Source: Lactovum miscens
Lineage (GTDB): Bacteria > Bacillota > Bacilli > Lactobacillales > Streptococcaceae
Length of the DNA stretch: 42,078 nucleotides
Direction of reading: 5' to 3'
Assembly: GCF_014202895.1 (NCBI RefSeq)
Contig: NZ_JACHHV010000016.1
Location: 1 to 42,078, forward strand
Of the stretch, positions 30,001-41,898 are shown piece by piece. The number at the start of each line of letters is the position of its first letter. The stretch's first letter is position 1. Both the position numbers and the translations under genes were made by a program. The notes beneath the pieces are model-generated. The model made no database searches and was not told the origin of the DNA. It saw nothing but the letters and a program-made list of their open reading frames with translations.

Positions 30001-30203
30001 TTTTGTTCTCCATTTTTAATTTGTAAAAATTTTAAAATATAAGCTTCTTGTTTTAAAAGATCTTTAGAATCACTATCTTCTAACTCTATATAAATTTTAT
30101 AAGCTCCCTGATAATCCTTCATATCATATAGATATTTGACACCTATTGCACTTAACAAGTCAATTCCTCTATGGGTAATCTCTTCAGATGTGGTAAGTGT
30201 CAA
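29997..30203 (-). pseudogene. Hypothetical protein truncated at its N-terminus by an IS end
   Basis: The reading frame gives 68 residues, but its only start is a TTG (30203) lying in the terminal bases of the ISLre2-type element. Native sequence begins about four codons later (SEEITHRGIDLLSAIG). The native N-terminus was therefore lost. The rest has a helix-rich tail with DYQGAYKIYIELEDSDSKDLL, reminiscent of TPR-like helices. It is coupled by ATGA to the downstream gene. Confidence 0.5.
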
Positions 30204-30753: not shown

Positions 30754-32388
30754 TTAAACAGTAATAAACTCTTTCAATTTTAATTTCGATTCGGAAATTA
30801 TTTTATTTGGGTAGTTTAAATTTTCAAGAGTAGCTATTGCATTTGTAGTTGTAGAAATACCTTCCCTAATTTTATAATCACTCTTATTTGTAGTTTGTGA
30901 ACTAGTAAAATAATAATATTTATTAAAATCTATGCCTGATTTTATCAGTTCAATATCATGAGTCGTTATCATATACAAACAATTCTCATTTTTTAACCAA
31001 TTCATAAGGCTAGTCCCAATAGATACTCTTTCAGCTGAATTTGTGCCACTAAAAATTTCATCTAAAAATAGATAATTAAATTTATCAGATGACAAATTAT
31101 CAATCAAAATCTTTATTCGCTTGCCTTCTGCAACAAAATGACTTTCCCCATTCATAACGTTATCACCAATGTTTATTGAACTTGATACTCCTCCGTATGA
31201 TAACGAAAAATATTTAGCAAGTGCGAAATTCAAGCTTTGAGCCAGAATACAATTTATAGCGGTCGTTCTCATAAAGGTTGATTTTCCTGATGCATTATCT
31301 CCACTAATAACGATATTATTATAAAATTTAATAGAATTACTAACTGGATTTTTTAAAAGAGGATGATATATTTCTTTTGCTTTTAAACCCTTTTCATTAG
31401 AAAATATTGGTTTACAGTGATAAATGCTGTATTCCAGGTAATTCAAATTTGATATAGCAGCATCCAAATTTGATATTATATCCAAAATCTCTTTTATAGA
31501 ATCGTTGTACTTAAATAATTTACTATTTAATTGTGAATAAGCAATAAAAGGAATCATAAATATCGCATTAATATATTCAAATATTATTGATGTTTCAGAA
31601 ACGTCTGTTTTATAATTAAAAGCATACCCTAAAAAATTCAAAATTTTAAATTTATTCAAATCTCGAGCAAGAACATTACTATCTGGAAAATCTAACTTTT
31701 TTAAAACATTTGACACATGAATAATTCGTACTAAATATGACATTCTTTCTAATTCAAGCTCTAATGAATATTTTCTAAATACATAGAATATAATATTAAA
31801 GGAAACACTAAAAATAAATATCAAAGAACCAAGTATGTTATTTATAAAAGCTGTAAGAAGAGATAGTGCTGGTAACAACCCCAATATTATGTACATTCTA
31901 TCATATCTAACTTTTTGTAATCCTGAGCCATATACAATTTGAAATGTCAAATTGTTGTTTTTCTTTCCTAATTTTGCCAGTACATTCTGGATTCTCTCTC
32001 TTACACTCTCATTTTCCAAAAGATATGATTTTAAATTCTCAAAATCATCATCTATTGAAAACTTGAGTAATCTCATTTTTGAATATAATAATTCTCCACC
32101 TAAACTAGTTTGGGTACTATTTATTTGAGAGAAAATTTGTTGTAGATCTAAATTATCCCATGTATCGTCGTCTATATAGCAATCATAAAGAATATTTTTT
32201 TTCCGAACTAAAAAACTAGATGCGAGGCTATCAACTGTGTCTCCCCGTCTTTTCTGAGTATGAAGCAGAGTTCCCCACATCTTTTTCAAGGATTTTTTTG
32301 TCTTTTGCGCTTCAAAGTAATTCGTTATCAAATTAACTGACAACGACAAGAAAACAAACGCTATACCAATAAAAATCCCGAATACCAT
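30754..32388 (-). CDS. Membrane-anchored MutS-family ATPase
   Basis: This 544-aa protein ends in a MutS ATPase domain: Walker A GDNASGKSTFMRTTAIN (363-379), the MutS-type loop GESHFVAEGKRIKILID, Walker B YLFLDEIFSGTNSAERVSIG (439-458) and switch His477 (ITTHDIE). The front half is not mismatch-binding. It has an N-terminal membrane helix (about 3-21) and hydrophobic pairs near 165-205 and 270-285. It therefore belongs to the membrane-bound MutS-like proteins of unknown function and not to DNA repair MutS1. It ends the peptide cluster and lies 9 bp after a small membrane protein gene, probably acting with it in export, immunity or membrane remodelling. The role is inferred. Confidence 0.8.
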   Translation of the reverse strand: MVFGIFIGIAFVFLSLSVNLITNYFEAQKTKKSLKKMWGTLLHTQKRRGDTVDSLASSFLVRKKNILYDCYIDDDTWDNLDLQQIFSQINSTQTSLGGELLYSKMRLLKFSIDDDFENLKSYLLENESVRERIQNVLAKLGKKNNNLTFQIVYGSGLQKVRYDRMYIILGLLPALSLLTAFINNILGSLIFIFSVSFNIIFYVFRKYSLELELERMSYLVRIIHVSNVLKKLDFPDSNVLARDLNKFKILNFLGYAFNYKTDVSETSIIFEYINAIFMIPFIAYSQLNSKLFKYNDSIKEILDIISNLDAAISNLNYLEYSIYHCKPIFSNEKGLKAKEIYHPLLKNPVSNSIKFYNNIVISGDNASGKSTFMRTTAINCILAQSLNFALAKYFSLSYGGVSSSINIGDNVMNGESHFVAEGKRIKILIDNLSSDKFNYLFLDEIFSGTNSAERVSIGTSLMNWLKNENCLYMITTHDIELIKSGIDFNKYYYFTSSQTTNKSDYKIREGISTTTNAIATLENLNYPNKIISESKLKLKEFITV

Positions 32389-32397
32389 TACCTCTCC

Positions 32398-32733
32398 TTA
32401 TCTGATTATAAAAAGTTGAATAAGAAAAAAACTAGTTCCTATCAATGCTACAACATTCAAAAAAATCAACAAATATTTTAATACAGGGTTAAAATATCTC
32501 AAAGAATATTTTAAAGCACCTGAAACGAATAACATAGAAACAGGTAACGCTAAAACATTGAATTTGCTTCCAGAAGTTGGTTGATTTGTCAGTATAAACC
32601 CAAAATTTATTTTTATTGTTTCTGGTAAAAACAGTAATAATAAAATGAGGGATAAGCCAAACTCTAAAATAGTCCACACGATGAAAAAATCAGCAATATC
32701 ATGTCTCTTAACAATATCATATTTCTTAATCAC
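32398..32733 (-). CDS. Small membrane protein of the MutS-like pair
   Basis: This 111-aa protein has about three to four hydrophobic helices (near 18-36, 57-73, 82-108). The start is a GTG at 32733 with AAGGAG five bases ahead. It is spaced 9 bp from the MutS-like ATPase gene and should be its partner. I do not recognise a family. In the original gene order it followed a frame that is now cut by IS sequence at 32820. Confidence 0.6.
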   Translation of the reverse strand: MIKKYDIVKRHDIADFFIVWTILEFGLSLILLLLFLPETIKINFGFILTNQPTSGSKFNVLALPVSMLFVSGALKYSLRYFNPVLKYLLIFLNVVALIGTSFFLIQLFIIR

Positions 32734-32755
32734 GTATCTCCTTATACTTATTATA

Positions 32756-32820
32756 TTAAATATTCGATAAACTTTCTTGTTTTAATTTCTTTTCAAAAAT
32801 ATCATTAAATAATAATTTTT
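32756..32820 (-). pseudogene. C-terminal tail of a gene cut by an IS
   Basis: Directly before the GTG of the 111-aa gene, a minus-strand frame of about 21 codons ends in LFNDIFEKKLKQESLSNI and a stop. It has no start because the IS30 end begins at 32821. It may be the lost tail of the ABC transporter gene whose 3' end is replaced by IS sequence at 33402, or of a further gene between them. Confidence 0.45.
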
Positions 32821-32972
32821 GGCAAATTGTAAAATTAAGTTAGCCACCTGAAGCAAGAAAAAAACAACTGAATCTCTTAGACTTGAGTTTGAAAGAACAA
32901 AAAGTAGAAAAGGATTCAGATGCAAGATGATTCTATCACAAAAGGCAAAGAAATTACTTATGCAGAACGTCA
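32821..32972 (+). mobile_element. IS30 5'-end fragment
   Basis: The terminal repeat GGCAAATTGTAAAATTAAG is followed by the IS30 leader and the first 18 transposase codons (MQDDSITKGKEITYAERQ from 32921). It then changes abruptly into an ISLre2-type end. The sequence is little changed, so it is a recent fragment. Confidence 0.85.
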
Positions 32973-33350
32973 GGTAAGTGTCAAATAATTAGCAGTAAAT
33001 CTTCAAAACTGAATTTTGGGTTAAATGTTGAAGCTCCTTCTGAGCTTCTGAGGCCCAAAATGCGCTTGACAAGGGGAATGGTAATCCATTTCATCACCTT
33101 CTTGAGTTCTGAAGTTGGCTTCCGATAAGATTTAAAAAGGTGGTGCCAGTCGTAAGCTGGTACCTCAATTTCTGGAAGTGAGTCATAATCAGTGTAGGCG
33201 TTAAAGTTTTGATTTTGACCTGCGCTGAGTAATTTAACCATTGCGAGCCCTAGCTTCACTCCAACGTCGGCCTTGTTTCTTCATGCGATAAGTATACAAA
33301 CGTTAGTGGCTCTCACACGTCAATGGCTGCCTCTGTCTCCTTGAGAAGGT
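32973..33350 (-). mobile_element. UPF0236/ISLre2-type transposase C-terminal fragment
   Basis: The element end GGTAAGTGTCAAATAATT is at 32973. The minus strand encodes a transposase tail: TYRMKKQGRRWSE (33255-33300), then after a frame change AMVKLLSAGQNQNF and on to FEDLLLII with a stop at 32981. RMKKQGxxWS...A.AMxKL is the hallmark of the UPF0236/ISLre2 transposases. The frame change and a stop near 33308 show it is dead. The same end occurs at 30192 and 41983. Confidence 0.75.
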
Positions 33351-33402
33351 TTCAGGTGTTTTTTTATTGCTTTAGGTGGCTAACTTAATTTTACAATTTG
33401 CC
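33351..33402 (-). mobile_element. IS30 left-end stub
   Basis: A left-type IS30 terminal repeat (reverse complement of that at 32821) ends at 33402. Its inner side is only about 20 bp before ISLre2-like sequence begins. Its outer bases provide the last codons and stop of the ABC transporter gene. Confidence 0.75.
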
Positions 33403-34974
33403 AATATATAAATTTAAATCAATGCTGTGATACTCAGTTTTGTTCAAAAACAAATCAAAATTCCCATGATATATAAATATTGTTGTCATCTTCATTTCCT
33501 TAATATAAGAGATGAAGTTAAAAACAACAGAATCTTCCAGATTAGATAATACTTCATCCAAAATCAAAATATTTGGTTTACTTAATAGCGCTCGAATGAG
33601 TTTGATTTTTTGCAACTGTCCACTACTCAACGCTATTGTGACTGATGACACCTCCTGTGATAATGGTAACTCAAAACTCAGGGTATTAATTAGCCTAAGT
33701 AATTGGTCTGTTTCGTAAGACTCAATTCCTTTAATCATATTGTCTTTAATAGTACCATCAAATAAAAAATTTTCCTGTGGAACATAAACAATCTGACTAT
33801 CAGGTTTCTTTTTTATTTCTCCTTCAAAATTTTCATGGTAACCTACTAATGTTTTTAATAAAATAGACTTTCCCACTCCGTTTGACCCTGAAATTCTAAG
33901 AATATCCTCTTCCAAAAGCGAAAACGAGAGCCTTTTAGTAAATAGGGCTTTGTGCTCTACATATGGTATAAAATTTTTTACAAACAGTAACTCTTTATCT
34001 TTCAAAGTTGAAAATTTATACTCACCCAAAGAATAAGTTTCGCTTGAAAAATTTAACGATTCAATCCGAGCAATCGAAACTTTCATTTGAGAAAATAATG
34101 CGGGAATATCTAATAATTTTCCTACTGGTAAGAACAGCATTGCTGAATAACTATTAAAAGCAACTAATGAACCTAATGATAATTGATGATGAACTACCAA
34201 AAGACTCCCAAAAAACAAGGTAATCAGTGGGATAATCACTGTTAAAAGTCCTGAAATATTACCCAAAAATGATAATATGGTGTTTGTTTTAATGTTTACA
34301 TCTTTGACTTGCTCTACTGAATTAGTGAATTCTTTTTGTTCTACATCTTTTAATTTGTACAGATCAATTAATAATTTATTACGCACATAAGCATTTAAGA
34401 AGCCAATCAGCCGATCTCGGTATTCTTGAAGCTTTTTTGATAAAGTAAAAACTTTTTTAGAAGTGATATAAGATACGAATACAAAAACAGGGATGGTCAA
34501 TAAAATCAAAAGAGTCAATTTTAAATCTAAACTAAGCAGGACAACCATATAAAGAATGATAAGGAGAATATTTGGAATGCTATTCAATAATATTGAAAGA
34601 AGTTGGTTCCCAATAACTTCACAGTCATTGATAATAGTATTGATAAACAGCCCATTATTTTTAGAATTTTCTTTTGAATCCAGAAATCTTTCAGCAATCT
34701 TTTGCCGAAAATCAAAGATAATGAGCTGAAGCCATTTAGAAGAAAAGTAACTAATAGCTACGTTAATAGGAATCAAGGACACAACCAATACCATAGTTAT
34801 TATTAAAATCGTCCTTAAGTTCTGTAGATGACCGCTTACCAACACATTATCAATAATGAATTTCGTGATATAGGGAAAAACTGTACTGACTACTACCTGT
34901 AAAAATATGAATATTCCTAAAATAAAAAGCAAAAATTTGTGTTTCACAAATATATTTTTATAATTTATTTTCAT
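33391..34974 (-). CDS. ABC exporter (fused membrane and ATPase domains) of the peptide cluster
   Basis: This 527-aa half-transporter has six membrane helices (about 13-35, 55-78, 130-150, 153-172, 238-262, 266-285) followed by an ATPase with Walker A GSNGVGKS (363-370), YVPQENFLFDG, signature ALSSGQLQK (448-456), Walker B ILILDE (469-474) and His503. It lacks an N-terminal C39 peptidase domain, so leader removal must be done by another protein. In context it should export the product of the radical SAM cluster or give immunity. The last three codons and stop (33391-33402) come from the IS30 end, so the native tail is lost, though the ATPase core is complete. The ribosome site GGAG precedes the start. 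Confidence 0.85.
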   Translation of the reverse strand: MKINYKNIFVKHKFLLFILGIFIFLQVVVSTVFPYITKFIIDNVLVSGHLQNLRTILIITMVLVVSLIPINVAISYFSSKWLQLIIFDFRQKIAERFLDSKENSKNNGLFINTIINDCEVIGNQLLSILLNSIPNILLIILYMVVLLSLDLKLTLLILLTIPVFVFVSYITSKKVFTLSKKLQEYRDRLIGFLNAYVRNKLLIDLYKLKDVEQKEFTNSVEQVKDVNIKTNTILSFLGNISGLLTVIIPLITLFFGSLLVVHHQLSLGSLVAFNSYSAMLFLPVGKLLDIPALFSQMKVSIARIESLNFSSETYSLGEYKFSTLKDKELLFVKNFIPYVEHKALFTKRLSFSLLEEDILRISGSNGVGKSILLKTLVGYHENFEGEIKKKPDSQIVYVPQENFLFDGTIKDNMIKGIESYETDQLLRLINTLSFELPLSQEVSSVTIALSSGQLQKIKLIRALLSKPNILILDEVLSNLEDSVVFNFISYIKEMKMTTIFIYHGNFDLFLNKTEYHSIDLNLYIGKL

Positions 34975-34996
34975 AAGGCATCTCCATATTATTAAT

Positions 34997-35009
34997 ATCT
35001 TTAGAAAAA
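34997..35009. repeat. Left target-site duplication of the IS30 copy
   Basis: ATCTTTAGAAAAA directly abuts the element at 35010 and recurs exactly at 35735-35747. Confidence 0.8.
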
Positions 35010-35734
35010 GGCAAATTGCAACTTTAATTTAGCCACACCGATACATCTGAAGCGGTGTCTGATACTCGAAAACATTTTTCTTGGATAATGATTCATCTAA
35101 GTCTCAATTTTAGAAACAGCCTGAACTGTTGTTTGTTTTGTTCCTTTGGATAAGAAACGTCTTATCATGCGGTTATGATTCTCATTGCTTCCACGCTCAA
35201 AGCTGGCATAGGCATGACAATAGTAAACCGGACAAGTCACCGCCTCATGAAGGCGGGCAAATTCACGCCCATTATCTGAAGTAAGAGATTCGAACTGAGT
35301 TTCCTTTTGAAGTGCTAAGAGTGCCGTATTGACGGATTGGGCAGACTTATCTGGAATTAAACGAATGGTTTCATTGAGGGCCGAAGTGAGCTTAGAACGA
35401 CGACCGCAGTGACTTTTATTGGCTCTGTGGCATTCATGTGCGTGAGTTGCAGAGTACCTTGTCTTGGTCTTTAGTTGAACCTGTCCCCCGCTTGAGTTCA
35501 TGATGAATTGTCTGAGGGACTTTATTTAAGAGTTGAGCGATCTGACGATTACTTAGCTTCTCCTTGTTGTGCCAACGTTCAATCAACTGACGTTCTGCAT
35601 AAGTAATTTCTTTGCCTTTTGTGATAGAATCATCTTGCATCTGAATCCTTTTCTACTTTTTGTTCTTACAAACTCAAGTCTAAGAGATTCAGGTATTTTT
35701 TTCTTAAGGTGGCTAAACTAATTTTACAATTGCC
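35010..35734 (-). mobile_element. IS30-family element, internally deleted
   Basis: The 725-bp element has both terminal repeats (GGCAAATTGC at 35010, CAATTGCC ending at 35734) and an exact 13-bp duplication of the target on both sides. It is about 300 bp shorter than a normal IS30-type element because the middle of the transposase is missing. It lies between the PH-like gene and the ABC transporter gene, and separates what was probably one transcript. Confidence 0.88.
35047..35640 (-). pseudogene. IS30 transposase, deleted, frameshifted and with a nonsense codon
   Basis: The first part (from the ATG at 35640) reads MQDDSITKGKEITYAERQLI with an N-terminal helix-turn-helix (LSNRQIAQLLNKVPQTIHHE). 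After a frame change the text continues as ATHAHECHRANKSHCGRRSKL, then jumps to the catalytic part (SLTSDNGREFARL, NENHNRMIRRFL). A TAG replaces the Trp codon in KIETW, found intact in the copy at position 90. It cannot make active transposase, so the copy must have been moved by another element or decayed after insertion. Confidence 0.85.
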
Positions 35735-35747
35735 ATCTTTAGAAAAA
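35735..35747. repeat. Right target-site duplication of the IS30 copy
   Basis: Exact copy of ATCTTTAGAAAAA found at 34997-35009. Confidence 0.8.
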
Positions 35748-35793
35748 GTAAAGCTCACATCTTCTTATGTATGCCTTACTATCAAAATCACCT

Positions 35794-36399
35794 TTATTTT
35801 TGATTTCTATTTATTACTGAAATAATTAGGCTTGCAATAATAAGCACAACAATCACAGCTCCTAAAATGAGTACCAGAGGTATCGTGATGTTTGCAAGAG
35901 AAGGAGAAACACCACTAATTATCCCCAAAATTACCACAGGAATAGCCAAAGCAATTGCTGAATTTGACATATAGTAAACTGCTTTATATGCATTACTTAC
36001 CTTTTTTGAGGGGACAACGTTCCCTTTTGAAGCATCTGATACAATTTGAGGTTGTTTCTCTTTCAATTCCTCAATAAATTTCTGAGGATTTTCAACTCCT
36101 AATACTAACTGATTTACTTCTTCATCAATTACTTCAATTAAAACAGGCTCCTCATGTCTTTTAATATTAACATAAGCTTTTACTCCATCTTTGTCATATA
36201 AACCACTATTATTACCAAAAAAGCTAGTTCCTGCAACCCGCCAACCTCCTCCATTGTTGAGGATGCCATAATCTCTTGTAATACTTTTTATATGCGTAAA
36301 TGGAATACTAAAGTGACCTTTAAAGCCTAAAAGTCTAGAAATCCCTAAAGGATTTACATCCATAGTTGACTGATTGATATTAATTTCATTACTTGGCAT
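35794..36399 (-). CDS. Bacterial PH-like membrane protein of the peptide cluster
   Basis: This 201-aa protein has an N-terminal soluble domain (about 1-115) patterned like a bacterial PH (YokE/EbsA-type) fold: FSIPFTHIKSITRDYGIL, GGWRVAGTSFFG and VNIKRHEEPVLIEV, ending in a helix ENPQKFIEELKEKQ. A linker follows, then two membrane helices (143-163 and 171-195). PH-type membrane proteins occur with bacteriocin gene sets as accessory or immunity proteins. An AAAGGAGA site precedes the start, 30 bp after the transglutaminase-like gene. The function is inferred from context. Confidence 0.65.
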   Translation of the reverse strand: MPSNEININQSTMDVNPLGISRLLGFKGHFSIPFTHIKSITRDYGILNNGGGWRVAGTSFFGNNSGLYDKDGVKAYVNIKRHEEPVLIEVIDEEVNQLVLGVENPQKFIEELKEKQPQIVSDASKGNVVPSKKVSNAYKAVYYMSNSAIALAIPVVILGIISGVSPSLANITIPLVLILGAVIVVLIIASLIISVINRNQK

Positions 36400-36429
36400 A
36401 CAGTTCTCCTTTCATTGATTATATTTTCC

Positions 36430-37470
36430 CTAATTTCTTAATGTCTGAGCATTTGCTATAGCAGTATGTTGAGGATAATTATCAATACCATAGGCTGGAA
36501 GAGAGATATAAAAGTCGTTCAGCAAAGATTGGTTTTCAGAAAAAACCTCCCAGTTAGAGTCATACCCCCCTTTTTGTCCAGTATCTGTCCAAGTACTATC
36601 TGCTCCATACCATGAACCACCAAGGTTTAATTCATTCCATGTATGCAAATAATTAGCTTCTCCAGCTGACGAAGCTGCATAAAGCTCAGGAGTGATGTTA
36701 TCTACTACAACCGATTGAAGACCAGCATATAAAAATCCAAGTTGAGTCAATTCAGTATATTCTTGACATACACCACCTCCTATATTATAGGCTTCTAATC
36801 CTGCACCATAGTCGTCTTGAGGTACAGAAACATAAGATTGTAATACCCCTATAGCAAGTCCTCGTGAATATAAATCTCCACTTTTTTGTGCTTCGTTTGA
36901 ATCATCAGTAGAATATTGTAATCTATCATCAATAAGCTGAACTATTGCATCAGCTTTTTGTGACTTACTGTTCTTACCTTTTAGTGCCACTGAAAAATCA
37001 TACATTATATTATACACAGTTTGTATCTGACTTTTTGAATACTGAGCCTGAACGTATTCACCTTGATTATTTTCAAGCTTAATTGCAGAAAAACCTTTTT
37101 CTATTGGCAATACCGAATGTACTTGAAAAGCATGTAGTATATTATAATCATACCAATCATAATTAACAGCAAGCTCTTTATCAGTAAGATTAAATAGTTG
37201 AGTTTCAGAAATCGTGTTGGGACTTGACTTCATTATCAATTGTTCCTGATTAGCATCAAGCGATCTAGGTTGGTAATTTGAATTAATTTGAGAATTTATT
37301 AGCTTTAATTTAAATCTAGGTGCTTTTTTGAAAAAATGAGATCCATCCTTCACTACCTTATCAAAATCATGATTTCTTTGATTTATAGTTTGAGCTTTAG
37401 AAATCATTGGAAAACAAAGCAAACTTGTTAATAAAATTAGCGAAAAACCACCAATAGAATGTTTAATCAT
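36430..37470 (-). CDS. Secreted transglutaminase-like protein
   Basis: This 346-aa protein has a signal peptide (basic MIKHS, hydrophobic core to about 22, likely cut after SKA at 24-26). Its C-terminal half is a transglutaminase-like domain with the triad Cys235 (GGGVCQEYTEL), His277 (LHTWNEL) and Asp291 (GADSTW). This fold covers proteases, peptide cyclases and transamidases. Placed between a radical SAM gene and an exporter, it may cut or crosslink the exported peptide outside the cell. It starts 38 bp after the radical SAM stop with an AAGGAGA site. It is intact. Confidence 0.8.
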   Translation of the reverse strand: MIKHSIGGFSLILLTSLLCFPMISKAQTINQRNHDFDKVVKDGSHFFKKAPRFKLKLINSQINSNYQPRSLDANQEQLIMKSSPNTISETQLFNLTDKELAVNYDWYDYNILHAFQVHSVLPIEKGFSAIKLENNQGEYVQAQYSKSQIQTVYNIMYDFSVALKGKNSKSQKADAIVQLIDDRLQYSTDDSNEAQKSGDLYSRGLAIGVLQSYVSVPQDDYGAGLEAYNIGGGVCQEYTELTQLGFLYAGLQSVVVDNITPELYAASSAGEANYLHTWNELNLGGSWYGADSTWTDTGQKGGYDSNWEVFSENQSLLNDFYISLPAYGIDNYPQHTAIANAQTLRN

Positions 37471-37508
37471 TTTAATTTCTCCTTGAATAAAACATAGATT
37501 TAGAATAA

Positions 37509-38534
37509 TTAAGACATCGCTTTTTCAATAACCATTTTCTGAGTGTATCTTGAAAGTACATCATCTTTTAAAATGTAATAATTCTCTTTAATGGCACTAA
37601 GCAAGTCCTTATTATTGTACAGATACGCACAATATAGGCATTTATGTGCAAAGATAGGAGGTTGCTCCCCTAACCATTGAGAGGCAACTTCAACTATCTT
37701 CTTAGGACCATCTAGGAAAATCCAAATTTTTAAAAAATCATTATGATGTTTCTCGAATATTTCTTTTAATTTTGAATTTTCAAGCTTGCCCAAGTGAAAT
37801 TCTTCAATGTCGTTGACAGTAAGTCCGCAACAAGCCATAATGTCGCCTCTTGGTTCTAAAGCAATTGTATCAAAAATCCCTTCACAGCCGCTCTCGATAG
37901 AATCATCCATTACAGATTCATCATATTGGTATATTGTATCTGTATGGAAAGAAACCCACGTGGCTGATAAAAGTTGCAAGTATTTTTCGTTTTCAGTATT
38001 TGCAATATATTGTTGATATAGTGGGTGATTTATAAAATCATTTGCTTTAAATTTTTTGCTTTTATTTGATTCAACAGAAATACAAGTTGTGATTTCATTT
38101 TCTGTAGCCGCAATAGTAGCATTTAATACACTTTCTACAGGGATATATTGTTGATGACTGTCTCCTGTAGAAAAGTTTATTTCTGTTAAGCCACTCTCGT
38201 GCAAAGCTGCTACTTTTTTTCTGGCTAAGCCTAAAGATTTACCCCAAAAGCCATTTGTTACACATCTTGTCATTAGTCCTAAGTCATTAGCATACTTGAT
38301 GCTCTGTACTAATAAAGAAAATTCAATAAAACATTCTCCACCAGAAAAAACAACAATTTTTACTGATGGTATCTCTTTGATTTGATCCAGAAAATACTTC
38401 ACTTTATCAAAATTCAAAGACGTCCCTTGTAAATGGGGCCCACAAGAAAAACAACATTCATCACACCGAGCCACACATTGATAGGTCATTAAAACTGCAG
38501 CCATTTCAGGATTAGGCTCAATTATATTATTCAT
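37509..38534 (-). CDS. Radical SAM enzyme, putative peptide maturase
   Basis: This 341-aa protein has the SAM-cluster motif CVARCDEC (Cys20, Cys24, Cys27) with further Cys28 and Cys31, the FSGGECF motif for SAM binding and CVTNGFW later. Its C-terminal part holds EPRGDIMACCGL and HKCLYCAYLY, cysteines fit for an auxiliary SPASM/twitch-type cluster. This is the layout of enzymes that modify ribosomal peptides. I start at the ATG at 38534 after GGAAAG; a frame opens slightly earlier. It overlaps the end of the 174-aa gene by 8 bp, so the two are made together, suggesting that protein is its substrate. Confidence 0.85.
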   Translation of the reverse strand: MNNIIEPNPEMAAVLMTYQCVARCDECCFSCGPHLQGTSLNFDKVKYFLDQIKEIPSVKIVVFSGGECFIEFSLLVQSIKYANDLGLMTRCVTNGFWGKSLGLARKKVAALHESGLTEINFSTGDSHQQYIPVESVLNATIAATENEITTCISVESNKSKKFKANDFINHPLYQQYIANTENEKYLQLLSATWVSFHTDTIYQYDESVMDDSIESGCEGIFDTIALEPRGDIMACCGLTVNDIEEFHLGKLENSKLKEIFEKHHNDFLKIWIFLDGPKKIVEVASQWLGEQPPIFAHKCLYCAYLYNNKDLLSAIKENYYILKDDVLSRYTQKMVIEKAMS

Positions 38535-39051
38535 AACTTTCCATACCATTATATTCTTTTACATACAAAATGAACTCGGTTACAACACTTGTTGCAAATT
38601 TTAAGCCTCCTCGTTCCATAGCAGCACTTACCAGACTACTAAAGTAATTTTGATTAACGGATTTGAGAATGGCGCTGTTTTGATTGGGCTTTTCTCCTCC
38701 AAGAACGAGAACTGCTCCAGCTACAATAACTGCTAATGCAAGCACTACAAAGGTCGCTCCCACAGCAACTGTTCCAACATTTAATCCAGCTGCAGCATTA
38801 ACAAAAACACCGACGTTTACCGCAGCTTTGCTCTCCATTCTCACAGGAATTCCATAAGCATTATTTAATGTAACATTAGAGTCTAAACGAAATTTTTTCA
38901 TAAATTCTACAGGACTGGGCAAATCAGTAATAATAGCACTGTTTTCATAATCGAAAGCTGCAGTCATAGCAGAGGATACATCCAGATTAAAATTGGATTC
39001 ATTATTGAAGTTTTTGAGTGGTTCTCCAAAAAGTCGAGTATTGTTGGTCAT
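38527..39051 (-). CDS. Putative modified-peptide precursor / hydrophobic substrate protein
   Basis: This 174-aa protein belongs to no family I know. Residues 1-75 are polar and leader-like. A hydrophobic stretch at about 76-119 begins with repeats of Asn-Val-Gly (79-81 and 91-93, with VNAAAGLNVGTVAVGA) and ends in LVLGGEK. A polar tail follows (120-174). It has a strong AAAGGAGG site and is translationally coupled to the radical SAM gene. The Asn/Val/Ala/Gly-rich core could be the part that is modified, and LGG at 117-119 a possible cut site. Alternatively it is a membrane-bound immunity protein. No cysteine is present, so thioether chemistry is excluded. Confidence 0.6.
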   Translation of the reverse strand: MTNNTRLFGEPLKNFNNESNFNLDVSSAMTAAFDYENSAIITDLPSPVEFMKKFRLDSNVTLNNAYGIPVRMESKAAVNVGVFVNAAAGLNVGTVAVGATFVVLALAVIVAGAVLVLGGEKPNQNSAILKSVNQNYFSSLVSAAMERGGLKFATSVVTEFILYVKEYNGMESYE

Positions 39052-39365: not shown

Positions 39366-39752
39366 ATGATAATAACAACAGACAACCAACAGAAAGTTAT
39401 CGATACCTTTTTCCTCATTGCAAAAGAAACTCCGAGTGTCAATAAAATCACTTTACAAATGATAGCTTCTCGTCTTGGTATACGTAGAGAGAGTATTTAC
39501 AAATACTGTTTTAGAATACCTAATGAAATACTAGAAAGAGCTCACTATTTAGTTGATAAAAAAATTGAAGAGTCAGTTAATGAGTTTGTCAATGGGGAAC
39601 GCCATGATTTTGCGGTCTTTCTTTCTCATGAAATACTTCCCCTTCTATATGAAAAAAGAGATTGGTTGCAAATTTTGTATAATACAATCCTTGATCCAAA
39701 ATGGGGGAAAATTTTAGAAAAAAATATGTACCCCTTATTGAAAATACCTTGA
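39366..39752 (+). pseudogene. TetR-like regulator, truncated
   Basis: The frame gives 128 residues with an N-terminal TetR-type helix-turn-helix (about 28-50: ITLQMIASRLGIRRESIYKYC) and the first part of the ligand domain. It stops 17 bp before an IS30 end at 39770. In another frame LDNIGKVW continues the ligand domain, so a frame change plus loss of the rest through IS30 is likely. TetR proteins are usually 180-200 aa. It is divergent from the 174-aa gene and was probably its regulator; the cluster may be free of this control now. Confidence 0.6.
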
Positions 39753-40007: not shown

Positions 40008-40153
40008 TTAATTTCCTGTTGCAGTATTATAAGCATAACCAATGATGCTTATAATATTAAGCCAATCGTTCCATCCGCCACCATTGATTTCCATAAGTTC
40101 ATCATCTGTTACCATCTGATATTATTAAATAATTGTTCAAAATTATTATTCAT
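40008..40153 (-). pseudogene. Double-glycine leader peptide gene, frameshifted
   Basis: The ATG at 40153 opens MNNNFEQLFNNI, and a frame change near 40115 leads into VTDDELMEINGGG-WNDWLNIISIIGYAYNTATGN, ending at 40008. The ELMEINGG stretch is a classic double-glycine leader end. The mature part would be about 22 residues with two Trp (GWNDW) and a hydrophobic middle. A 35-codon frame from the ATG at 40115 is open but has no ribosome site. The gene lies behind a decayed radical SAM gene and an Rgg regulator, so it was probably a bacteriocin-like or signalling RiPP. Confidence 0.65.
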
Positions 40154-40200
40154 TGTGTACTTCTTTTTAAAATTTGCAATTTTCCTTTACTAAACGACTA

Positions 40201-40220
40201 AGTATACTCTATAGATAGAG
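40201..40220 (-). promoter_or_regulatory. Promoter and palindrome before the double-glycine peptide gene
   Basis: A TATACT -10 (40201-40206, minus strand) is directly preceded by the palindrome CTCTAT-CT-ATAGAG (40207-40220), which would cover the spacer. This is a fitting place for an activator or repressor such as the nearby Rgg. Confidence 0.45.
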
Positions 40221-40304
40221 ATATGCTTTTAACATAATCAAAAATAGTACATTGGACTCACCTTCTCTCCAAAAAAATTCTGTCTAACCTTAGACATCAG
40301 AAAA

Positions 40305-40952
40305 TTAACCGAGTAAATCATCATAAGATATGAATAATCTTTTGTTAACTTTTCCCTCTGTCCCTAAGGGCACAAAGGCATTAATCTTACTTCAGAAACT
40401 CCAAGCTCTCCTGCAAGTTTCAACATATTTTGAATGGTGTGTTTATTTTTCTTAGTCAAAACCATTGCTAAACACACTGGAATTTCTTTTTCATTAACAC
40501 AGATATACTTTTAAGGGCCTTCTCTAGTGTTCCTCTCCCTCTTATTACTGCAACATTTATTCTCATAATTGGAGATTCAAGCGATACTCGCGCTTCTCGT
40601 AAATATTTAGAATTTTCTAAAAAATTTGACGTTTTCTCTCTCTCAAGAAATTCTGTCCATCTGTAGAGAAAGAATAATAAATTTTCGACTTTTCCAATTT
40701 ATTAAGTATGCAATCAAAATATTTTGATTCCGCTGGTTCTCCACCCAACAAAGAAACTTGGACAATTTCTTTCTCCTTAATTATTTTCAAGATATTACTG
40801 ACTTCATCAAAACTAAGATCATGACCAACGTAATCTTCTAAATAACAAAATTTACACCTTAAATTACAACGACTTGTTATAAACCATTTAACGTCTATTG
40901 GATTTTTTAAATACTCAACCTCAATATAAAAAGGATAACTTGGTATCCCAAA
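40305..40952 (-). pseudogene. Radical SAM peptide maturase, decayed
   Basis: The minus strand reads IPSYPFYIEVEYL, then WFITSRCNLRCKFCYLEDY with the CxxxCxxC motif (about 40845-40870), VSLLGGEPAESKYF, FSTDGQ, and after frame changes LAMVLTKKNKHTIQNM and EVRLMP/FVPLGTEGKVNKRL. No start codon precedes it in frame, and the C-terminal cysteine part is absent. The motif order is that of a radical SAM/SPASM enzyme. At least two frame changes make it dead. It differs from the intact radical SAM enzyme at 37509. Confidence 0.7.
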
Positions 40953-41013: not shown

Positions 41014-41898
41014 CTATAATTTTTCAATCTCCTTTTCTAGATTTCTTGCTTGATCAACTTCTCCATAATATTCTAAAGTGTCGGCACACTTTTGCATTTC
41101 TTTTTTTCCTTTTTCCCTAAATCCTTGAAGATACTCATAATGCCCTTCATGATACTTTAACATTATTTTTTCATAAAAAAAATCTGATGAGATTTCCATT
41201 GCTCTTAAATGATTAATATATTTAAAAGCTTGGACCAAATCACTTCGTAATAACCATACATTAATGATGTTTAAAAGTGTTCTGATAACAATTTGTTGAT
41301 TTAAATGAATCGTATGATAAAAATTAGTTCTCCCTAATATATACGAGCCATAATAAGACAACATAGTATTATCAAAAAAGTTTAAGCAGTTACCAAATAT
41401 CCATAGCTCATATCTACCCCATTCTTGTACATCATCTAGGTAATCAGTTATAAATAGAACATCTTCCTTCATGATTTTTGAGCCTGACGCAAGTGCTAAA
41501 ATAGCTCTAACTACCTTTTCATCAATCTTATAATACTTTCGAGTTGGAAAATTAGCTGATTTACCTTCCCATTCTTTAACCATTGATTTTAACTTTACGA
41601 GATCTCTTTTAACATAAGCTTGAGATAACTCTCTTCTGAATGAATAATTTTCCGACGCAGTGTAATTGTCATAAATTGTTTGAAATTCATCCAAAGACAC
41701 ATTTGAATTTTTAAGTGAAACAAAGAATTTACTAACCGTAATATCCGACTCCCCTGACTCAAATTTTGACTGCTGAGCCTCTGAAAACTCACCAGTAGTC
41801 ACATCCTTTAAGGTTAAACCTTTGGCCTTTCTTATCAAAGCAAAGGTTTCTCCAATTTTTAGATTTAATTTTTTATCCATTTGTATATTTTCTTTCAT
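41014..41898 (-). CDS. Rgg/GadR/MutR-family regulator
   Basis: This 294-aa protein has an N-terminal XRE helix-turn-helix (about 13-65: KIGETFALIRKAKGLTLKDV, FSEAQQSKFESGESDITVSKF) and a long helical repeat domain as in Rgg proteins that bind short hydrophobic peptides. It appears intact. The start may be the first Met or the Met at residue 7. It stands at the head of the decayed radical SAM/peptide genes and likely controlled them. Many streptococcal radical SAM peptide loci are under Rgg control. A palindrome sits at its own promoter. Confidence 0.85.
   Translation of the reverse strand: MKENIQMDKKLNLKIGETFALIRKAKGLTLKDVTTGEFSEAQQSKFESGESDITVSKFFVSLKNSNVSLDEFQTIYDNYTASENYSFRRELSQAYVKRDLVKLKSMVKEWEGKSANFPTRKYYKIDEKVVRAILALASGSKIMKEDVLFITDYLDDVQEWGRYELWIFGNCLNFFDNTMLSYYGSYILGRTNFYHTIHLNQQIVIRTLLNIINVWLLRSDLVQAFKYINHLRAMEISSDFFYEKIMLKYHEGHYEYLQGFREKGKKEMQKCADTLEYYGEVDQARNLEKEIEKL

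Follow-up and report, generated by a model that had tools for sequence, protein, structure and literature searches.

Among the closest described relatives of the system reported here are two cannibalism systems of Bacillus subtilis that have been studied separately: EPE, built on a radical S-adenosylmethionine (SAM) epimerase, and SDP, built on an internal hydrophobic toxin with SdpI immunity. In the epipeptide pathway (EpeX/YydF, EpeE/YydG), Cys223 of EpeE has been put forward as the residue that quenches the C-alpha radical (PMC8326336). SDP is a 42-aa hydrophobic toxin internal to the 203-aa SdpC, and SdpI protects its producer (PMC6818787). Here we describe seven genes in a 42,078-nucleotide stretch of DNA from Lactovum miscens, a member of the Streptococcaceae (contig NZ_JACHHV010000016.1, positions 1 to 42,078; hereafter the window), which encode a 174-aa precursor, an EpeE-like radical SAM enzyme, an ATP-binding cassette (ABC) exporter and four further proteins. 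It is rather probable that this operon makes and exports an epimerised, hydrophobic, membrane-active peptide bacteriocin. Judged by their defining features, the cassette falls outside EPE, SDP, the proteusins and the sactipeptides; we would class it as a variant of the epipeptides whose precursor and presumed immunity follow the SDP pattern. We found no account of this family in the literature searched, most subscription papers being outside its coverage, and our claim of novelty is limited accordingly. The cassette comprises the following features:

38827-39051, minus strand: precursor leader, residues 1-75, starting NTRLFGEPL (R-[LIVF]-[FY]-G-x-P motif and AlphaFold)
38698-38826, minus strand: predicted precursor core, about residues 76-118, V/A/G/N-rich, hydrophobic and Cys-free (hydropathy and low AlphaFold confidence; limits approximate)
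38527-38697, minus strand: precursor C-terminal tail, residues 119-174, with the motif RGGLKFATSV (GGxx[FY] tail motif and predicted helix)
37509-38549, minus strand: radical SAM/SPASM enzyme, EpeE/YydG-like, likely start Met 38534 (rSAM_yydG, PDB matches, invariant Cys)
36430-37470, minus strand: secreted transglutaminase-like protein, Cys235-His276-Asp291 (PF01841, E 1.8e-4; triad residues)
35794-36399, minus strand: bPH_5 (PH-like) membrane protein, probable immunity protein or export helper (PF10882, E 5e-7)
33391-34974, minus strand: ABC exporter, fused permease and ATPase, no C39 peptidase (Pfam; identity to exporters of other clusters)
32398-32733, minus strand: small membrane protein (111 aa), DUF1648/SdpI-like, probable immunity protein (homology to G019 and G001 proteins)
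30754-32388, minus strand: MutS-like membrane ATPase, accessory (MutS_V, E 4e-20)

All seven open reading frames (ORFs) lie in a row on the minus strand where the initial annotation, made from the sequence before any database search, had placed them, and their naming by Pfam and NCBIfam largely matches the names given there. The 8-bp overlap that it described between the precursor and radical SAM genes is correct given an enzyme start at Met 38534, the longest possible ORF opening a little earlier, at 38549, and an identical overlap is kept in Streptococcus thoraltensis (L011), in G266 (L018) and on a Lactococcus lactis plasmid (L012).

The precursor, which has no match in Pfam or NCBIfam, consists of a leader, a hydrophobic stretch and a tail. 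Its hydropathy peaks at residues 82-117 (Kyte-Doolittle 2.26, 83% VAGIL). AlphaFold gives a pLDDT (predicted local distance difference test) of 82-89 for leader residues 41-60 and 76-87 for a tail helix, with values below 50 for residues 69-129; because the overall pLDDT is 56, this picture is only suggestive, and the alignment used for it left out two plasmid rows. The plan of leader, V/A/G-rich hydrophobic stretch and tail recurs across the relatives, the tail measuring about 30-75 residues in most, longer in Gram-negative forms and short in G1217 and G1245. By eye, the leader motif R-[LIVF]-[FY]-G-x-P or a close variant is present in L011, L018, L012, L027, L060, L061 and L015, and the tail motif GGxx[FY] or a close variant is found across the relatives in lactic acid bacteria (LAB). 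Direct sequence similarity is weak beyond the Streptococcus and L. lactis relatives, so the wider precursor family rests on position and architecture. The LAB precursors have no signal sequence, but an exporter is present; those of the Gram-negative forms and Thermus do have one (by eye, twin-arginine (Tat)-like in Thermus, L061 and L015), and no exporter of this kind was seen near them. A hydrophobic peptide inside a larger precursor recalls SDP, and so do the adjacent SdpI or DUF1648-type membrane proteins, whose match is weak in the window itself. Unlike SDP, the cassette has a radical SAM enzyme, and its LAB members add a dedicated ABC exporter and have no signal sequence. The best toxin_SdpC match among the precursors has an E value of 0.027 (L060), and none of the seven window ORFs is named SdpA- or SdpB-like in Pfam or NCBIfam searches.

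The radical SAM enzyme connects the cassette to the epipeptides. It scores slightly below the Pfam cut-offs for both PF04055 (27.5 bits) and SPASM (19.5 bits) and matches NCBIfam rSAM_yydG (TIGR04078) with an E value of 2e-22. A search of PDB with a profile of the enzyme (A3) returned the EpeE/YydG structures 8ai1-8ai6 as sole matches (E 6e-25); the single sequence also matched an archaeal enzyme, weakly and in part, EpeE remaining the sole full-length solved relative. Eight tested Cys residues, the three radical SAM Cys included, are invariant in ten aligned relatives. The Cys changed to Ala in structure 8ai3 aligns with window Cys241, one of these eight; it is read here as Cys223, the two being equated by residue counting and not from the paper. 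Since the enzyme is EpeE/YydG-like and the critical Cys is conserved, epimerisation is its likely chemistry. The initial annotation had the enzyme modifying the precursor in a way it left unspecified; the peptide-maturation unit is supported, and the modification is refined here to this probable epimerisation. An aliphatic core and a plausible membrane target are further likenesses to the epipeptides. The differences lie in the precursor, which measures 168-174 aa with an internal core and a tail in the closest relatives versus 51 aa for YydF (Macrococcus); in the absence from the window of the genes for a peptidase and for an ABC ATPase and its separate permease that the Macrococcus plasmid operon (L080) contains; and in the enzyme score of 79.8 bits versus the 300-bit equivalog cut-off of rSAM_yydG. 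In our tree, where EpeE is represented by a single, long-branched sequence from Macrococcus, the enzyme family forms one separate group, moderately supported (73/85), and on these comparisons it is a family distinct from EpeE itself.

The Rgg-controlled radical SAM RiPPs (ribosomally synthesized and post-translationally modified peptides), or RaS-RiPPs, such as streptide and tryglysin, share with the cassette a radical SAM enzyme, a nearby Rgg gene and streptococcal or lactococcal hosts. As in these peptides, the enzyme of the same cassette might have a different chemistry, such as the formation of C-C or C-O cross-links: the SPASM group is chemically diverse, several clusters have an adjoining Rgg gene (L011, L013, L045 and L070), and in about six relatives a Trp is found at the core or immediately ahead of it (GWFY in S. 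thoraltensis, RGWYN in G946). We consider this unlikely, given that Trp, Lys and Cys are all missing from the window core and that the only full-length solved match is an epimerase with its critical Cys conserved. The RaS-RiPPs differ, moreover, in precursor size and core composition, and their loci as described in a review have no DUF1648, SdpI or bPH_5 partners. Lys-Trp and thioether chemistry are ruled out for the window core by its composition. The sactipeptides and ranthipeptides differ in the same respect, the window precursor containing no Cys anywhere; none of the 14 Bacilli precursors tested has a Cys in its predicted core, which is evidence against thioether RiPPs. Epimerisation remains the modification that we favor.

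The precursor and radical SAM genes are adjacent in about 20 loci found by enzyme and precursor searches in LAB, Thermus, Streptomyces and prophages. The order is Rgg-membrane protein-precursor-radical SAM-ABC in S. thoraltensis; membrane protein-precursor-radical SAM-papain-family peptidase, with ABC on the opposite strand, on L. lactis p001F; ABC-Rgg // precursor-radical SAM-DUF1648-like on Enterococcus mundtii pLDW-8; and Rgg // radical SAM-precursor-ABC-DUF1648 in G901. The G266 cassette lies inside an apparent integrative and conjugative element (ICE). Further LAB cassettes occur in G946, G738, G913, G937, G970 and G684, two more genomes of the same phylum (G1217 and G1245) carry one, and distant relatives are found on Thermus pTA14, in Streptomyces canus and Eleftheria and on prophage-like IMG/VR contigs. 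The G019 locus, from the same genus, reads Rgg // precursor-radical SAM-DUF1648-like-MutS-like, with a frame break in the precursor and no insertion sequence (IS) elements. E. mundtii G904 carries two cassette copies on one contig (C2 11958 and 135990). The IMG/VR contigs (L060-L066) show enzyme-precursor-bPH-like cassettes, those of the L061 type with phage tail genes directly upstream; no cassette was found in a search of phage records. Decay of the cassette seems common: L045, L019, L072 and L074 are broken, with frame breaks in G019 and G684, a truncated precursor in G236 and a G970 enzyme gene interrupted by an in-frame stop.

The exporter protein opens directly with ABC_membrane and has no C39 domain in Pfam, as first noted. 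It is 51-54% identical to the exporters of clusters L070, L068, L012 and L013, and because of this identity it belongs to the system, as had been claimed, despite the IS remnants on both its sides:

35010-35735, minus strand: IS30-type remnant with HTH_38 fragment, operon break (PF13936, E 2e-14)
32820-33404, minus strand: second IS remnant with both ends present, operon break (terminal repeats and likeness to the 35010-35735 remnant)

These two remnants (limits approximate) have near-identical ends, share 93.5% identity over 154 bp and flank the ABC gene, whose 3' end is abutted and overlapped by an IS end. The initial annotation took the IS insertions for later breaks in one operon, a view that is supported; since they split the operon, it may no longer work in this L. 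miscens strain. IS30-type element ends, mostly remnants, are spread across the contig (1-180, 29487-29605, 32820-33404, 35010-35735 and 39770-39841), and a distinct second repeated IS end is present at 30192, 32973 and 41983.

Such remnants raise the question of whether the seven genes are a chance neighbourhood built by IS elements, in which only the precursor and radical SAM genes belong together. The ABC gene is parted from its neighbours on both sides, MutS-like genes are common alone elsewhere, and the expectation that all seven families would recur together and IS-free has failed, no other locus among those found having the full set. Even so, we regard a chance assembly as very improbable. 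The window exporter matches the exporters of other clusters, the radical SAM, DUF1648-like and MutS-like genes are contiguous in the IS-free G019 locus, and bPH_5, DUF1648-like and MutS-like genes are contiguous in G001. Precursor, enzyme and exporter recur jointly in other genera, and on that ground the window arrangement is not chance. Nor was an intact precursor seen apart from a radical SAM gene, a case raised at the outset as adverse; the lone solo copy, in G236, is the truncated one.

The small membrane proteins extend the parallel with SDP. The 111-aa window protein is 41% identical to a protein of the G019 cluster (PF07853, E 0.008) and 53% to that of G001; aligned by hhalign with the DUF1648 protein of L070, it gives E 2.6e-4 at a probability of only 42%. 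Clear DUF1648 or SdpI proteins occur in the relatives L070, L072 and Thermus. Few DUF1648 proteins are present in these genomes, and in G901 and G904 (E. mundtii) every detectable copy adjoins the enzyme; SdpI does so in Thermus (E 1e-15) and G970 (E 2.5e-7), and a DUF5808 match below cut-off (E 2e-4) does so in G684. The window bPH_5 protein is 47% identical over 113 aa to one in G001, where it stands beside DUF1648-like and MutS-like genes. In L060, L061, G1217 and G1245, as in the window, bPH_5 adjoins the radical SAM gene, and in G1217 and G1245 these are the best bPH_5 matches. The PH-domain proteins DdE and DdF are required for export of enterocin DD14 (PMC8657885). With this precedent and that of SDP, immunity or export help by the DUF1648/SdpI-like and bPH_5 proteins is likely by analogy. 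Being DUF1648/SdpI-like, the 111-aa protein is probably an immunity protein and not merely the partner of the MutS-like ATPase, the role first given to it; the two genes are paired in G019 and G001. G001 retains the bPH_5-DUF1648-like-MutS-like set without the enzyme, which fits what is expected of immunity genes.

The export precedent and SdpI itself, reported to protect probably through toxin binding (PMC6818787), would also suit a product that is a secreted signal, or a membrane-active peptide acting on the producer, with the DUF1648 and bPH_5 proteins as receptors or export helpers. The core is, however, large, hydrophobic and variable, the cassette is carried on a plasmid, an ICE and prophages, and immunity-like genes persist without the enzyme in G001; a product of this sort is in our judgment improbable, and a bacteriocin remains the preferred product.

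For maturation of the peptide, the transglutaminase-like protein is the candidate in the window; in line with the initial annotation, it may cut or cyclise the core outside the cell. The catalytic triad reported at the outset is indeed present, although the PF01841 score of 22.2 bits falls short of the cut-off of 23; its N-terminal signal sequence was assigned by eye. The protein was found in no other cluster, homologues on plasmids were absent, a search of 196 family genomes gave only surface proteins with a similar domain, and its single-sequence AlphaFold model has a pLDDT of 34. A papain-family peptidase occupies the slot of its gene on the L. lactis plasmid, which suggests, no more, that a secreted cysteine-type enzyme serves maturation. 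A secreted protein with a possible cysteine-peptidase-like end lies beside the G970 precursor (L072 6568-7623). The MutS-like ATPase is present in 27 of 97 family genomes, paired with a DUF1648-like gene in three genus members (G019 and G001 among them) and linked to the enzyme in one congener. It stands without the cassette in three neighbourhoods outside the genus (L046, L048 and L049), and the plasmid homologues examined lie in unrelated neighbourhoods with no cassette; its part in the cassette is uncertain for this reason.

We propose the following route to the product. The ribosome would make the 174-aa precursor, and the EpeE-like enzyme would abstract the C-alpha hydrogen from chosen aliphatic residues of the internal core, Cys241 returning a hydrogen to the opposite face to give D-residues. 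The dedicated ABC exporter would then carry the product out, and the leader and tail would be removed, possibly extracellularly by the secreted protein of transglutaminase fold. Once mature, the peptide would perturb membranes, and the DUF1648/SdpI-like and bPH_5 membrane proteins would shield the producer or aid export. The gene set, its homologies, the conserved catalytic residues and the recurrence of the cassette are observed. Epimerisation, the core limits, the processing enzyme, killing and immunity are what we infer from the sequences; epimerisation, with enzyme homology and a conserved Cys behind it, is the best-supported step, the later ones being read from gene content. Several observations weigh against this proposal. 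The chemistry could differ, because the rSAM_yydG score is far below the equivalog cut-off, and the Asp changed to Ala in EpeE structure 8ai6 is apparently not conserved. The window core shows no significant two-residue alternation (p 0.34), like most LAB cores. The 111-aa protein has no Pfam match, its DUF1648 assignment coming through weak homology, and some loci, such as L068, have no recognised immunity gene. No exporter was seen in the G019 contig, and the roles given to the transglutaminase-like and MutS-like proteins rest on one or two loci.

Alternation of large residues with small ones or Asn is significant elsewhere: Thermus (p 0.002), L060 (p <0.001) and L015 (p 0.005), by one fixed rule applied to 20 sequences with p values uncorrected for multiple tests. 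These alternating V/A/N cores and the large leader recall the proteusins (polytheonamide, PoyD-type epimerases). The window enzyme differs in carrying SPASM Cys, and neither it nor the precursor has a Pfam or NCBIfam match to an NHLP (nitrile-hydratase-like) or Nif11 leader or a PoyD-type epimerase. A bolder and quite tentative idea is that the cassette represents a new RiPP class in which an EpeE-like epimerase sets D-residues at intervals along an extensive hydrophobic core inside the precursor. In certain members, namely Thermus with its alternating Asn, L060 and Eleftheria, these might fall on alternate residues and yield a polytheonamide-like beta-helical channel; immunity would come from SdpI, DUF1648 and PH-domain proteins, and plasmids, ICEs and prophages would spread the cassette across phyla. 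Were our proposal true, EPE and SDP would be joined in one multi-phylum cassette; it predicts new D-amino-acid bacteriocins in LAB, assigns DUF1648, SdpI and bPH_5 proteins a function open to direct testing, and points to peptides beyond the proteusins, in a thermophile plasmid and prophages, that may form channels. On Thermus aquaticus pTA14 (L014 2599-6074), an Asn-alternating core (VNANVHYNVNTNLNVSTNANFNYNANYNYN), an EpeE-like enzyme, an SdpI protein and a methyltransferase stand in a row, possibly a polytheonamide-like pathway on a thermophile plasmid.

Upstream of the cassette lies one further gene of interest:

41014-41898, minus strand: Rgg-type regulator (Rgg_C, E 1.5e-32)

It stands 2 kb upstream of the cassette and beside a decayed second radical SAM gene, and may regulate either the cassette or this adjacent decayed locus. 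A short TetR-like ORF on the plus strand (39366-39752) has weak matches only and is probably truncated. The remains of the second radical SAM gene (40250-40916, minus strand; PF04055, E 1e-10) have a broken frame; after them comes a small peptide whose leader is of the double-glycine type (TDDELMEINGGGWNDW...; 40008-40112, minus strand). Together the remains at 40008-40916, next to the Rgg gene, are those of another, decayed RiPP locus.

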